From: Phycisphaera mikurensis NBRC 102666
GTDB lineage: Bacteria > Planctomycetota > Phycisphaerae > Phycisphaerales > SM1A02
Length of the DNA stretch: 64,000 nucleotides
Reading direction: 5' to 3'
Assembly: GCA_945878575.1 (NCBI GenBank)
Contig: CAMDUB010000001.1
Span: forward strand, 1-64,000
Below the pieces are notes generated by a model. It had not been told where the DNA came from. It was given only the letters and a program-made list of their open reading frames with translations, and searched no databases. Each line of letters starts with the position of its first letter. Position 1 is the first letter of the stretch. The translations under genes and the position numbers were made by a program. Shown here piece by piece: positions 1 to 25,794 of this stretch.

Positions 1-177
1 CGCGGACGGCTGCGCTCCACAAGGTTCCGCTTAGCCTCGGGCGAATCTGTTCGTCCGGTTGGCACCCACGGGGCGTACGTCCAACTGCCGGACTTCTCAG
101 TTTCACACGCCGCTTACCGAGGATCCCGTGCTCACTGCGGGGGCTCGCACACCGACATCACGTTGACAACCAGGGTT
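1..177. other. gene-free region at window edge
   Basis: I see no convincing gene here. The stretch contains a good stem-loop at 53-93: GTCCGG at 53-58 pairs with CCGGAC at 88-93, and TTGG at 59-62 pairs with CCAA at 81-84. It leads into the structured repeat that starts at 178. Whether it is the 3' part of a gene or RNA beginning outside the window cannot be told. Confidence 0.4.
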
Positions 178-265
178 TGTGGAACACCCCCATCTGGCCG
201 CAGGCGCCGGAGAGGATAGGGCCGCGCTCAGCGGCCATCCTCGTAAGGCGAATGCGGGCCAGTAG
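178..265. repeat. 88-nt structured repeat, copy 1
   Basis: This 88-nt block recurs at 19119-19206 with only three differences. It folds into one long hairpin. CTGGCC at 194-199 pairs with GGCCAG at 257-262, GCA with TGC, GCC at 206-208 with GGC at 247-249, GAGGAT at 212-217 with ATCCTC at 237-242, and GGCCGC at 220-225 with GCGGCC at 231-236, closing a GCTCA loop. T217-A237 is replaced by C-G in the other copy, a compensatory change that supports a real RNA or single-strand DNA structure. It lies 3' of the leftward Nudix gene. A shared 10-mer, GCGTGATGCA (297-306), lies between it and the stop codon. Strand of any transcript is unknown. Confidence 0.8.
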
Positions 266-321
266 GAAATCGTGCAACATCAAAGCCACTACGCAAGCGT
301 GATGCACCACCGCGCGAACCT

Positions 322-855
322 CTAAGCCGGACGGCGCTCTCGCACCTGATGTGTCATGGGCTCGGTGCTGCAGTCAATGTCCACGCTAAAGAACCCGCCC
401 CGGTGCGCGCGCACCAACGGCCACAGGATCTCGCGGTCTGTCACCGGAATCGGTAATCGCTCAACGTCAGCTGCCGCGACCCATTCGAGGCGTCCTTCGT
501 CAAACTCAGACATAGCGATTTCTTCCGCGCGGACATGGCGCGTGCATTCGAACAGGAATATCAGCCAGTGCATCTCGCCTTGGTAAGCACGTTCGCTCAC
601 CATGCCGAACATGCGCATGTCTTCTTCCGGGAGTGCTAAGCCCGTCTCTTCATGAAGTTCGCGGATGGCGCACTCGTGCGGACTCTCGCCTCGGCTAATT
701 TCAAGCTTGCCACCAACCGGGGAGTACATGTCAACGTTCGGCTGCTTCTTGCGATGCAGCATGAGAATGCGACCCTCGGCGTCCCACAGGTAGCAAAGGA
801 CAGCCACTTTGTATGGAAGTGCTGCCGTGTCGTACTGGGCTGCGTGGAGGTTCAA
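322..855 (-). CDS. Nudix hydrolase
   Basis: This is a 177-residue MutT/Nudix-family pyrophosphohydrolase. The Nudix box lies at residues 48-73 (GGK, GES, then RELHEETGL) and supplies the metal-binding glutamates. The gap between GG and GE is about two residues longer than the textbook box. Such enzymes cleave nucleoside diphosphates linked to another moiety. The substrate cannot be told from sequence, and the length leaves room for a single Nudix domain only. Its ATG overlaps the dapA stop as ATGA, so it is probably translationally coupled as the last gene of a leftward pdxJ-dapA-nudix group. The start is fixed by that overlap. Confidence 0.88.
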   Translation of the reverse strand: MNLHAAQYDTAALPYKVAVLCYLWDAEGRILMLHRKKQPNVDMYSPVGGKLEISRGESPHECAIRELHEETGLALPEEDMRMFGMVSERAYQGEMHWLIFLFECTRHVRAEEIAMSEFDEGRLEWVAAADVERLPIPVTDREILWPLVRAHRGGFFSVDIDCSTEPMTHQVRERRPA

Positions 856-16913: not shown

Positions 16914-18953
16914 ATGAACAGGACATTCTGTGCTGCGGTTGCCTGTGTACTTTCCGCATCGGTCAGCACTTTCGGCGATGCGACATTCTCATTTACCAAC
17001 CAATGGAGCGGTGGCGGCCAAGGCGCTTTCCGCATTAGCAACGGCTCCACCCAAGCGCTGCAAGGGTGGACGCTGGAATTTGACTGGAACGCGGATATTG
17101 GCAATGTGTGGAACGGCGTCATTCAGAGCCATGTGGGCAATCACTACGTGATTGCGCCTGCGGCATACAACGCTGAACTTCCCGCCGGTGGCGTCATCGA
17201 TATCGGCTGTGTAGCTAGCTTTGCCACTGCTGGCCTGCTTCCAACGTCACTGGTGTTCAGTGGTGGAGATAGCGGTGGTGGCGGCGGCGGTGGTGGCGGC
17301 GGTGGTGGCGGCGGTGGCGGAGGCGGACCGGTTCCAACGGTCAGCATTGCCGATGCCTCCGTGACGCTGGCAACCGCTGGCGGTAATGCACCAGCGAATG
17401 GATTCTTGTCTACCGTTGGAAACCAAATTGTTGATTCCAATGGAAACCCGGTGCGCATCTCTGGCGTGAACTGGTTCGGATTTGAAACGTCAAACAAGGT
17501 GTTCCATGGCTTGTGGACACGCGGATACAAGTCCATGTTGGATCAAGTGAAGCAACTTGGTTTCAACACACTTCGCATTCCGTTCTCCAACGAGACCCTC
17601 CGCGCCGGCGCAACGACCAGCAGCATCAACTTTGCGCAGAATCCAGACCTGCAGGGCCTGACGCCGTTGCAGTGCATGGACAAAGTCATTGAGTACTGCG
17701 GCAGGATTGGCCTGCGTGTCATTCTCGATCGGCACTCCGCCAAGGCCGACAACTACCTGAGCGAAGATGTGTGGTTCGTTGCAGGCGACAGTTACCACAC
17801 CGAACAGCGCTGGATTGCTGACTGGGTCATGCTGGCGCAACATTACGCCGGTAATCCAACAGTCATCGGCGCTGATCTGTTCAATGAACCGAAGCGCAGT
17901 GCAACCTGGGGAACCAATGCTCCTCTTACCGACTGGAACAAGGCTGCGGAGCGATGCGGAAATGCAGTGCTTGCTGCAAATCCATCGTGGTTGATTATTG
18001 TTGAGGGCGTTGAGCGCTACAACAATCAAACCACGTGGTGGGGCGGCAATCTGAAAGGTGTCGCCTTTGATCCGGTGGTGTTGAGTGCCAGCAATAAACT
18101 CGTTTACTCGATGCATGAGTATCCGAAGAGCGTCTATGCGCAGACCTGGTTCAACGACCCGACATATCCGAACAACATGGACGACGTTTGGAACGTGCAC
18201 TGGGGCTATATCTTCAAGAACCAGACCGCTCCGCTACTACTTGGTGAATTTGGAAGCAAGTTGGAGTCCACCAGCGACGAGCAATGGCTTGACAAGTTGA
18301 CCGACTACATCGATGGTGACTTGAACCTCGATGGCGTTCGTGATCTGCCTGCCAGCCAACTTGGTATGAGTTGGACATACTGGAGCCTCAATCCGAACAG
18401 TGGCGACACTGGCGGCATTCTCAAGGATGACTGGACCACCGTGGATACTGCCAAGATGGCCTATATCCAAGCAAGCCAGGCACCACTGATTGGCTCCGGA
18501 GCTGCTGCCTCACAGCGAATTGATTTCCCCATCACCCTTTCGGAGGCTGCAACCAGCGCCGTCAGCGTGGCCTGGGGTACCGCCAACGGAACCGCGCTTG
18601 CGGGCATCAATTACCTGTCAGCATCCGGTGTTCTCACCATCCCTGCCGGGCAGCTTCAAGGTCAAGTGTCTGTGGTGGTTCCTGCGCAGGCAGCCACTGG
18701 CACCAAGCAATTCACAGTGCAACTGTCTGCACCGGTGGGCGCCACACTGTTGGATTCGATTGCCACGGGCACCTTGCGCACGGCGTGTGCATCTGACCTG
18801 AATGGCAACGGAATCGTTGACGGCGGAGACTTGGGTCAAATGCTCGGTTCATGGGGTCCATGCTCCGGTTGCAACACTGATCTCGACGGTGATGGTGCCA
18901 CCACGGGCTCAGACCTGGGACTACTCCTTGGTGCATGGGGTTCATGCCCCTAA
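16914..18953 (+). CDS. secreted modular GH5 cellulase (CBM2-like, Calx-beta, dockerin-like)
   Basis: A 679-residue secreted glycoside hydrolase. Its parts in order are: signal peptide 1-23; CBM2-like domain (about 24-118) with exposed tryptophans (QWSGG, LQGWTLEFDWN, GNVWNGV); 18 glycines at 121-138; a strand PTVSIADASV (about 139-150); and a GH5 domain (about 160-525) with VRISGVNWFGFET, acid/base Glu in LFNEPKR and nucleophile Glu in LLGEFGSK. The rest of a Calx-beta domain follows (about 530-620), then two dockerin-like motifs (DLNGNGIVDGGDLGQMLGSWG and TDLDGDGATTGSDLGLL). It probably cleaves beta-1,4-glucan outside the cell. The start has AAGGAAG 8 nt upstream. The catalytic domain appears to be inserted into the Calx-beta domain. 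Confidence 0.9.
   Translation: MNRTFCAAVACVLSASVSTFGDATFSFTNQWSGGGQGAFRISNGSTQALQGWTLEFDWNADIGNVWNGVIQSHVGNHYVIAPAAYNAELPAGGVIDIGCVASFATAGLLPTSLVFSGGDSGGGGGGGGGGGGGGGGGGPVPTVSIADASVTLATAGGNAPANGFLSTVGNQIVDSNGNPVRISGVNWFGFETSNKVFHGLWTRGYKSMLDQVKQLGFNTLRIPFSNETLRAGATTSSINFAQNPDLQGLTPLQCMDKVIEYCGRIGLRVILDRHSAKADNYLSEDVWFVAGDSYHTEQRWIADWVMLAQHYAGNPTVIGADLFNEPKRSATWGTNAPLTDWNKAAERCGNAVLAANPSWLIIVEGVERYNNQTTWWGGNLKGVAFDPVVLSASNKLVYSMHEYPKSVYAQTWFNDPTYPNNMDDVWNVHWGYIFKNQTAPLLLGEFGSKLESTSDEQWLDKLTDYIDGDLNLDGVRDLPASQLGMSWTYWSLNPNSGDTGGILKDDWTTVDTAKMAYIQASQAPLIGSGAAASQRIDFPITLSEAATSAVSVAWGTANGTALAGINYLSASGVLTIPAGQLQGQVSVVVPAQAATGTKQFTVQLSAPVGATLLDSIATGTLRTACASDLNGNGIVDGGDLGQMLGSWGPCSGCNTDLDGDGATTGSDLGLLLGAWGSCP
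17274..17327 (+). repeat. 18-codon polyglycine run
   Basis: Eighteen consecutive GGN codons, mostly alternating GGT and GGC, encode the linker between the CBM2-like and GH5 parts of the cellulase. The DNA is a 9-bp-like microrepeat that could gain or lose whole codons. Confidence 0.85.
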
Positions 18954-18969
18954 CTAAATCGGCGACATA

Positions 18970-19010
18970 CCGCTGTACTGGGAAGGCCATTGCGCCCCCC
19001 AGTACAGCGG
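18970..19010. other. 13-bp perfect inverted repeat after the cellulase gene
   Basis: CCGCTGTACTGGG at 18970-18982 is the exact reverse complement of CCCAGTACAGCGG at 18998-19010, with a 15-nt loop. It starts 17 bp after the cellulase stop. No T-run follows on either strand, so it is not a textbook intrinsic terminator, but it may stop transcription or protect the 3' end. Confidence 0.7.
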
Positions 19011-19034
19011 GCCGGTCGCGATAAATAGGTGCCG

Positions 19035-19069
19035 TTCACCCCTGTCCCCCGTTTCGGGGCGCGGGTGAA
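19035..19069. other. stem-loop in hairpin-rich intergenic region
   Basis: TTCACCC at 19035-19041 pairs with GGGTGAA at 19063-19069, and CCCCG at 19047-19051 with CGGGG at 19055-19059. It is the second of four consecutive hairpins between the cellulase and pseudopilin genes. Confidence 0.55.
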
Positions 19070-19092
19070 GTGCGTTGAGTCGTCCACCGCCT

Positions 19093-19121
19093 ACAGAAGG
19101 CACGTGAACACCACGTTCTGT
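19093..19121. other. stem-loop abutting repeat copy 2
   Basis: ACAGAA at 19093-19098 pairs with TTCTGT at 19116-19121, and CGTG with CACG inside it around an AACAC loop. It overlaps the first bases of the 88-nt repeat. Confidence 0.5.
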
Positions 19122-19206
19122 GGAACACCCCCATCTGGCCGCAGGCGCCGGAGAGGACAGGGCCGCGCTCAGCGGCCGTCCTCGTAAGGCGGATGCGGGC
19201 CAGTAG
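19119..19206. repeat. 88-nt structured repeat, copy 2
   Basis: 85 of 88 bases match copy 1 at 178-265. The same long hairpin forms, with the pair C19158-G19178 replacing T217-A237. The third difference (G19192 for A251) falls in an internal loop. Read on the minus strand, it lies behind the pseudopilin gene, as copy 1 lies behind the Nudix gene. The 10-mer GCGTGATGCA (19211-19220) ends exactly 15 nt before the stop codon in both places, although the distance from the 10-mer to the hairpin is 4 nt here and 31 nt at copy 1. Confidence 0.8.
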
Positions 19207-19235
19207 ACAGGCGTGATGCAAAAGCGCAACCAGTT

Positions 19236-20150
19236 TTACTTGCCGATCCACCACTCGCGCTCCGGCGCCCCATCACACCATCGGGTCATGTCTCGCAGCG
19301 CATCTACTTGCAATAGCTCAACACCACCATCGATCGTCCCAATGACCACCTCGTCACCATGACGCGCGCTCACTGATCCAAAGCTCAATGCATCATTCGG
19401 GTCGTACTCCGCTGCCCATCGAGCCGTCGCCGTATTCAACCACGGTGCGTCAACACGAAAGCAACCCTCGTTGATGAAACCATCGGTGGTTGCCCCCGTG
19501 CGCGCGGATGAAAAGACGATGGTCTGTTGGGGTCGCTTCGCAGCGGAAAGCCGCGTCACACAGTACTTCGCAAATGGATTGGCAACGCCGTTGGCAAGGA
19601 TGGGCTCGCTTGGAAAGCGCGCATCGTCGCCGCCAACAAAGGCACTATTCATTCCAAAGTTCGGATACAGCGACGCAAAGTAGTAGTACTGGTTTCGATC
19701 ACCCGCCTGCAACTTGGCGAGCGTCTCCGCGTTGGCGCCCACATACAGGCGGCGGAAATCGTCATCGAGCCACGGTGCCAGCCGCCACGGAAATCGCTTG
19801 GAAACCTCAATGTCCCCGCCGTACGCGTCGGCAGGAATTGCGTTGCCGTTCTCATCACGCGCCGAGTACCCCGCCTTGTAGCCAGGCAGCACGAACCCGT
19901 TCTGATCCGCCGCATACGAAATCCAGCCCGTCATGACCCCACGCAAGGCGGAGACCTCGCTCATCCGTCCGGCCGCCCGACGGGCGCCAAGTGCGACCGG
20001 AACGATAACTGCCACCAAGACGCCGATAATGGCCAGTACAACCAGAAGTTCTACGAGTGTGAATCCCGCAAATTGCAGCGTTCGAACCGTCTGCGACGAA
20101 CTGGTCGTCCCATTCGCGCGTTTCATGGCATATTGAATGGGCGGCTGCAT
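19236..20150 (-). CDS. pseudopilin-like protein (prepilin N-terminal methylation domain)
   Basis: A roughly 304-residue protein. It begins with a short basic leader and then the type IV prepilin signal GFTLVELLVVLAIIGVLVAVIVPVAL, processed by prepilin peptidase between G and F, with the +5 glutamate present. The rest is a secreted globular domain rich in aromatic residues (NQYYYFASLYPNFGMNSAF) that ends with a DGG-containing strand. Many planctomycetes carry large families of such proteins; their individual roles are unknown. The ATG at 20150 has GGAGG 4 nt upstream; the ATG at 20126 is an alternative. It is divergent from the dockerin-tailed gene, with 34 bp between the starts. Confidence 0.8.
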   Translation of the reverse strand: MQPPIQYAMKRANGTTSSSQTVRTLQFAGFTLVELLVVLAIIGVLVAVIVPVALGARRAAGRMSEVSALRGVMTGWISYAADQNGFVLPGYKAGYSARDENGNAIPADAYGGDIEVSKRFPWRLAPWLDDDFRRLYVGANAETLAKLQAGDRNQYYYFASLYPNFGMNSAFVGGDDARFPSEPILANGVANPFAKYCVTRLSAAKRPQQTIVFSSARTGATTDGFINEGCFRVDAPWLNTATARWAAEYDPNDALSFGSVSARHGDEVVIGTIDGGVELLQVDALRDMTRWCDGAPEREWWIGK

Positions 20151-25395: not shown

Positions 25396-25745
25396 GGGGC
25401 CGTACCGGCATCGACCGGACAGGCAACGCACAGTGTGGCGCGTCGTGGAGCATGCCGGCCACGTTAAAAAGCATGCAAATTCACAACTGCCAATAACACG
25501 CAGTACGCTCTCGCAGCCTAATTAGGCTGTGCAGTGAGTCCCCCCACGCCTGAATAAGGGGGCCGCTGTCAAAAATCAGGCTGGTTCCAATGGGCTGACA
25601 TGCTTCGGCGGAACGAGATGATGCATGTCTTGGTTCGCACACCCCGTTGCGGGGGTCTGTGCGGTCGACAATCAATCCGCAAACACACTCGTAGAGGCAT
25701 TGTGCGGACTGTTTCGGCACAGGGGTTCGACTCCCCTCGGCTCCA
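25396..25745 (+). ncRNA. ssrA: transfer-messenger RNA (tmRNA)
   Basis: tmRNA rescues stalled ribosomes and tags the nascent protein. GGGGCCG at the 5' end pairs with CGGCTCC at 25738-25744 as a tRNA-like acceptor stem with the usual G-U pair. GGGGTTCGACTCCCC is the T-arm, and GGCATCGACCGG near the 5' end is the conserved D-region. The tag frame starts at GCA 25471 and ends at TAA 25519-25521, coding ACKFTTANNTQYALAA. The stop lies in the loop of a CAGCC/GGCTG hairpin, as is usual. The 3' CCA is not encoded (ACTTG follows). A promoter and terminator flank it. The resume codon is inferred. Confidence 0.95.
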
Positions 25746-25794
25746 CTTGATTGCTTGATGGTCGGTCATCTGTGACCGGCATCCATTCGTACCT

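Follow-up and report, generated by a model that had tools for sequence, protein, structure and literature searches.

A 71-nt hairpin of Phycisphaera mikurensis NBRC 102666 as a probable module of a genus-specific, BOX/BIME-like mosaic interspersed repeat

Known small interspersed repeats and the anatomy of the mosaic

Small interspersed repeats are known mostly from enterobacteria, pseudomonads and pneumococci. The BOX element of Streptococcus pneumoniae has the organization boxA-boxB(n)-boxC, and the element described here resembles it in being modular, folded, dispersed and lineage-specific with one module that is variable in number; both are also over-represented between convergent genes (PMC3049150). 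The overall order of the mosaic is D-(A)-C-A(1-4)-B(n), and the variable copy number that makes BOX a composite is found here in D-C-A(1-4)-B(n). Nevertheless, the modules differ from those of BOX. They are GC-rich and include a hairpin of 71 nt and a three-way junction of 155 nt, and one end equals the repeat of a RAYT transposon; homology to boxA, boxB or boxC is unlikely as judged from the source organism and the base composition rather than from an alignment.

REPs are defined by GTAG or CGTC tags; REP and BIME elements are, like the hairpins of the mosaic, extragenic palindromes which are clustered and show concerted variation, and RAYT genes are present in the genus studied here (PMC3733652). 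On the contrary, the mosaic has head-to-tail copies only, whereas BIME units alternate in orientation. A third comparison concerns the terminal inverted repeats (TIRs) of TIR-flanked RAYT genes, the TIRYTs (PMC3733652). Module D belongs to these TIRs and likewise occurs dispersed, away from the transposase gene, but in the mosaic it is single, stands at one end only and is joined to C, A, and B. With MITEs in general the mosaic shares that it is short, non-coding, folded and repeated and that one end, the 34-bp D, is common to an autonomous transposon; unlike MITEs it has no paired terminal inverted repeats at its two ends, and no target duplication was seen. The mosaic is a separate family of small mosaic interspersed repeats, for which an open-access library gave no earlier description.

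The window, that is the whole stretch of 64,000 nucleotides from the start of contig CAMDUB010000001.1, contains two copies (Table 1). The initial annotation had reported two 88-nt copies (178–265 and 19119–19206) which are identical at 85 of 88 positions, and this is correct; both are on the + strand, and the differing positions are T217/C19158, A237/G19178, and A251/G19192. Also the compensatory change which had been read from them is true, as T217-A237 is replaced by C19158-G19178 in paired columns of the hairpin, within the apical helix. Of the two strands of each 88-nt copy, the + strand folds with a z-score of about −4.7 and the − strand with one of −3. However, the natural boundaries are not those of the 88-nt copies. 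The conserved unit is the 71-nt hairpin (module A), and the 16 nt preceding it belong to a linker which is variable in other copies.

Table 1. Modules of the mosaic and neighbouring genes in the window.
Feature	Positions	Strand	Basis
Module C (three-way junction), 5′ side cut by the contig end	1–152	+	22 matches in own genome, genus-wide matches, 15 covarying pairs
C-A linker, differs among copies	153–193	+	Comparison of copies
Module A, 71-nt hairpin, first window copy, core of the finding	194–264	+	
Module B tail, two degenerate repeats including GCGTGATGCA	265–306	+	
Nudix gene, reads toward the element, stop 57 nt from A	322–855	−	PF00293, E 7.7e-19
GH5 cellulase with CBM2, left of the second copy, reads toward it	16914–18953	+	PF00150, PF00553, gene call
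Module D, identical over most of 34 bp to the RAYT transposon TIR of congeners	19023–19056	+	
Module C outer edges, middle missing, then linker	19057–19134	+	Comparison with intact D-C-A copies
Module A, second window copy	19135–19205	+	
Module B tail, one unit including GCGTGATGCA	19206–19220	+	
Pseudopilin-like gene, reads toward the element, stop 30 nt from A	19236–20081	−	PF07963 N_methyl, E 3e-6

Module A has the sequence CTGGCC..CGCCGGAG, followed by the apical stem, and then ..AAGGCG..GGGCCAGTA. On its 3′ side follows module B with one to four degenerate repeats of 27–31 nt, which in the species of the window read approximately CCAGTACGNAANCGTGATGCANCAACGC and of which the 10-mer GCGTGATGCA is a part. 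Module C comprises about 155 nt and lies 5′ of many A copies; nucleotides 1–177 of the window have 22 matching places in the own genome, mostly 93–100% identical. Module D is the 34-bp sequence AAATAGGTGCCGTTCACCMCTGTCCCYATTTTCG and starts the mosaic at its 5′ side in 25 of the 49 sites with enough upstream sequence. It is always forward and always 5′, usually 62–80 nt away from C or A (35–39 or 91 nt at four sites), and a second, reverse D was found at none of the examined sites within 500 nt downstream. The ∼77 sites examined all show the order (A) C A (A..) with A and C pointing the same way, and clustered A copies all have the same orientation.

Folding and distribution of modules A and C

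The hairpin of module A has 25 pairs with internal loops over its 71 nt. Across 43 distinct sequences, which cover the versions of genome G005 with an almost wholly different apical stem, 96.3% of the cells are paired, and both sides are changed in seven pairs, of which six lie in the apical helix. Shuffles and slid alignments served as controls for the covariation: slid alignments pair at 26–50%, and the covariation score was reached by no shuffle. Module C folds, on the basis of 16 sequences, into a three-way junction of 50 pairs, of which 15 are changed on both sides. Neither module was matched by the Rfam covariance models at E up to 1; the sole match in the window is a full-length tmRNA gene (25396–25748). 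An intrinsic terminator was rejected in a weak test, as a hairpin with a T-run was found at 0 sites in window positions 1–400 and 18900–19350.

The element is not confined to the two copies of the initial annotation. The own genome, a draft of 2.79 Mb in 162 contigs with 86% completeness, contains 32 strong copies of A with E-values from 1e-20 to 1e-50, which excludes a chance match; they occur on either strand, both dispersed and in small clusters. With a covariance model of the 71-nt core, 6–51 copies each were found in 8 of the 14 genomes of the genus, and with stricter filters none in ∼140 other genomes of the family. Named relatives are MAGs of Planctomycetota/Phycisphaerales from freshwater, with Lake Pavin and Lake Baikal among the sources. 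C or A stands at many contig ends of genome G000 (15 contigs). As the repeat breaks the assembly at contig ends, the copy numbers are underestimates. Carriage by phages or plasmids was rejected, as the A pattern had no match in IMG/VR and the composite none in plasmid and phage collections.

The initial annotation had asked whether further copies exist, whether their helices hold and whether a known RNA family matches. Further copies do exist, the helices are kept and the Rfam families, 6S, SRP and RNase P RNA among them, gave no match. With many dispersed copies, compensatory changes and an intergenic position at gene ends, the class which it proposed, a mobile or recruited structured element of the REP/MITE-like or 3′-UTR type, is right, but it missed the larger mosaic which starts upstream and includes window positions 1–152. 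For its other suggestion, a small RNA family, a scan limited to the sigma-70 consensus gave no promoter-like site in support, and a promoter-driven small RNA was rejected on this weak test.

The tails of the mosaic are species-specific even at the same orthologous site, being of the GCGTTGTTGCATCACGC type in G000 and of the GGTTTGCAAACCGGCG type in G009. Therefore, the dispersed copies evolve in concert and are homogenised within each species.

Module C has a wider distribution than A and was found in 12 of the 14 genomes of the genus and, at low scores, in two genomes from a second genus of the family. One might thus ask whether C is a multi-copy structured non-coding RNA gene family to which A is an appendage. 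The three-way junction with its 15 covarying pairs, the highly conserved loops and the wider distribution argue for it. On the other hand, the sigma-70 consensus scan found no promoter-like site for C, Rfam has no match, and the copies are near-identical within a genome and usually lie between convergent genes, so that we consider an RNA gene family quite improbable. Where a lineage has no A, the place behind C is taken by other long palindromes of the GGTGGCCTCA..GAGCGACTGAGGCCACC or GCGGCATGCCTCGC type (seven loci), as if the second module behind C were exchangeable; one locus of G001 was left out of this comparison. It is conceivable, albeit improbable, that C is a functional structured RNA or a single-stranded DNA handle, a new three-way-junction element which would recruit a resident RAYT-type nuclease and carry an exchangeable hairpin cargo to stop codons. 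If so, the cargo would be A here and unrelated palindromes in other lineages, and each lineage would have its own interchangeable 3′-end modules.

Placement of the mosaic at gene ends

The elements are intergenic and mostly found at gene ends. When both neighbours are known (neighbouring genes were called with a Viterbi caller), 22 of 44 sites are convergent in comparison to 33 of 196 background intergenic regions, with an odds ratio of ∼5 and a p of ∼1e-5 which is optimistic, as the sites are drawn from related genomes. Divergent are 5 of the 44 sites and 50 of the 196 background regions. Of 67 genes on the B side, 51 are read toward the element. A similar dockerin-like repeat (GDLDGDG..DLGLLLG.WG) terminates two of the neighbouring genes, namely the GH5 cellulase gene left of the second copy, where it lies in window positions 18800–18953, and a gene next to a copy of C.

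Hairpin A is separated from the stop codon by 20–182 nt, and the last GCGTGATGCA-like motif by 5–136 nt (25 sites). The 10-mer had been noted to end 15 nt before the stop codon in both window copies. This is correct for these two copies but not as a general rule, and because the distance spans 5–136 nt over the 25 sites, the identical spacing is due to chance.

The enrichment between convergent genes and the orientation of the B-side genes would also be expected if the host had recruited the element as a 3′-UTR module. In this case selection would keep the hairpin because it ends the transcripts of convergent genes in both directions or stabilises their mRNAs, and the spread of the hairpin would be secondary. 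The preservation of the helices by compensatory changes, the retention of some sites over long times, and the more stable consensus fold of both A and C on the − strand, which is the sense strand for most B-side genes, point in the same direction. Nevertheless, a U-tract or a terminator match is absent, A is missing at the same genes in congeners, and single-base changes in A yield wobble and C.A about equally on both strands (hand count). In addition, BOX and RUP repeats are likewise biased toward convergent genes although no host role is known for them (PMC3049150). Thus, we regard the 3′-UTR module as unlikely.

The history of the element can be followed at orthologous sites. At the pseudopilin site A is present in G000 (one copy), G002, G007 (one copy), and G009 (two copies); the contig of G003 breaks off within the first bases of A, and in the outgroup G005 the gap measures 72 nt and contains an ordinary hairpin, with several changes lying between. 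At the Nudix site of G007 and G009 half an A remains, and its TGA is used as stop codon. Insertion or excision of a whole unit with target duplication was not caught in these comparisons. A few sites are common to A-bearing species and distant congeners, and the elements have diverged there, which suggests old insertions rather than current mobility, or favoured sites. At three orthologous convergent sites without A (in G004, G005, and G012) long palindromes, for example, ATCCGTACCCGGTTACGTATGCACCAATT..AATTGGTGCATACGTAACCGGGTACGGAT, reach from the TAA of one gene to the TTA of the other. By hand count, D follows a rightward gene in 16 cases, and in ∼12 of these the stop codon of the gene and the first six bases of D overlap; this overlap could explain the position at gene ends without any selected function.

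Palindromes just behind stop codons which are sometimes arrayed also bring to mind the attC sites of integrons. However, the copies of A stand in tandem without a gene between them and the sites are dispersed, the ends of A are CTGGCC/GGCCAGTA and not GTTRRRY/RYYYAAC, and in no A-bearing genome did an integron integrase score above the cut-off, the matches there being sub-threshold tyrosine recombinases. An attC identity of A is therefore so improbable that we disregard it. A full integron integrase is encoded only in G004, a genome without A (contig C93, 4346–5284; TIGR02249, 357 bits).

The RAYT transposon end and the proposed mode of spread

Module D matches the 32–34-bp terminal inverted repeat of an 837-bp element which is present in G002, G007, and G011 and encodes a RAYT-type Y1 transposase (PF01797). 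RAYT genes are found in 9 of the 14 congeners, whereas the own genome, which is 86% complete, has no PF01797 gene. The 837-bp transposon lies, at three loci of these genomes, between convergent genes and exactly at the TAA stop (CTC TAA ATAGG). A second RAYT element with different ends (TGTCCGGGGTATCCCTGCACCTATTTAT) is situated directly behind the TAA stop of another gene (two loci, in G007 and G009).

The presence of RAYT genes and the palindromic, dispersed and extragenic nature of A could indicate that A is a classical RAYT-mobilised REP of the GTAG/CGTC type. However, neither tag is present at the 5′ foot of A on either strand; the foot reads GTAC or CTAC on the − strand and CCAGTAC on the + strand in most copies. 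With 71 nt and 25 pairs A also exceeds the stem of 5–13 bp and the unit of 20–40 bp of such REPs, and among the matches listed the RAYT genes are flanked by D-like repeats and not by A. The identity as a classical REP was therefore rejected, and we hold it to be very doubtful.

Instead, we suggest, with somewhat better than even confidence, that the element belongs, as one module, to a mosaic interspersed repeat, genus-specific, BOX/BIME-like and non-autonomous, which was probably spread by RAYT/HUH activity and is tolerated, perhaps used, at transcript ends. The match of D to the transposon TIR is the strongest hint to how the mosaic may have spread. Because the 5′ end of the mosaic is the terminal repeat of a RAYT transposon, it is probable that the mosaic was spread in trans by a RAYT (Y1/HUH) transposase, and A and C might have been folded in single-stranded DNA during this process. 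HUH enzymes acting on single-stranded, hairpin-bearing DNA are established for IS200/IS605 relatives (PMC6006769). Tandem expansion and gene conversion would then keep the copies alike. The copies would survive mostly between convergent genes because promoters are undisturbed there. Against this reading stands that half of the sites have no D and none has a second D; therefore, the mosaic is not a plain two-ended MITE of the RAYT transposon. The missing PF01797 gene of the own genome and the sites shared with distant congeners also speak against it.

Where copies are transcribed, they would form strong hairpins just past the stop codons and could shield mRNA 3′ ends or limit read-through. Such roles have been proposed for REP and BIME elements. 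A role at transcript ends is, in our interpretation, a possible by-product of the spread.

The mosaic adds a well-resolved case from the Planctomycetota to the small interspersed repeats and ties a mosaic repeat to a Y1 transposase through the terminal repeat of the latter. For two folded modules which are not in Rfam covariance models have been gained. The repeats break metagenome assemblies at contig ends. Finally, the homogenisation within species together with the differing tails at orthologous sites makes gene conversion versus turnover testable in this genus.
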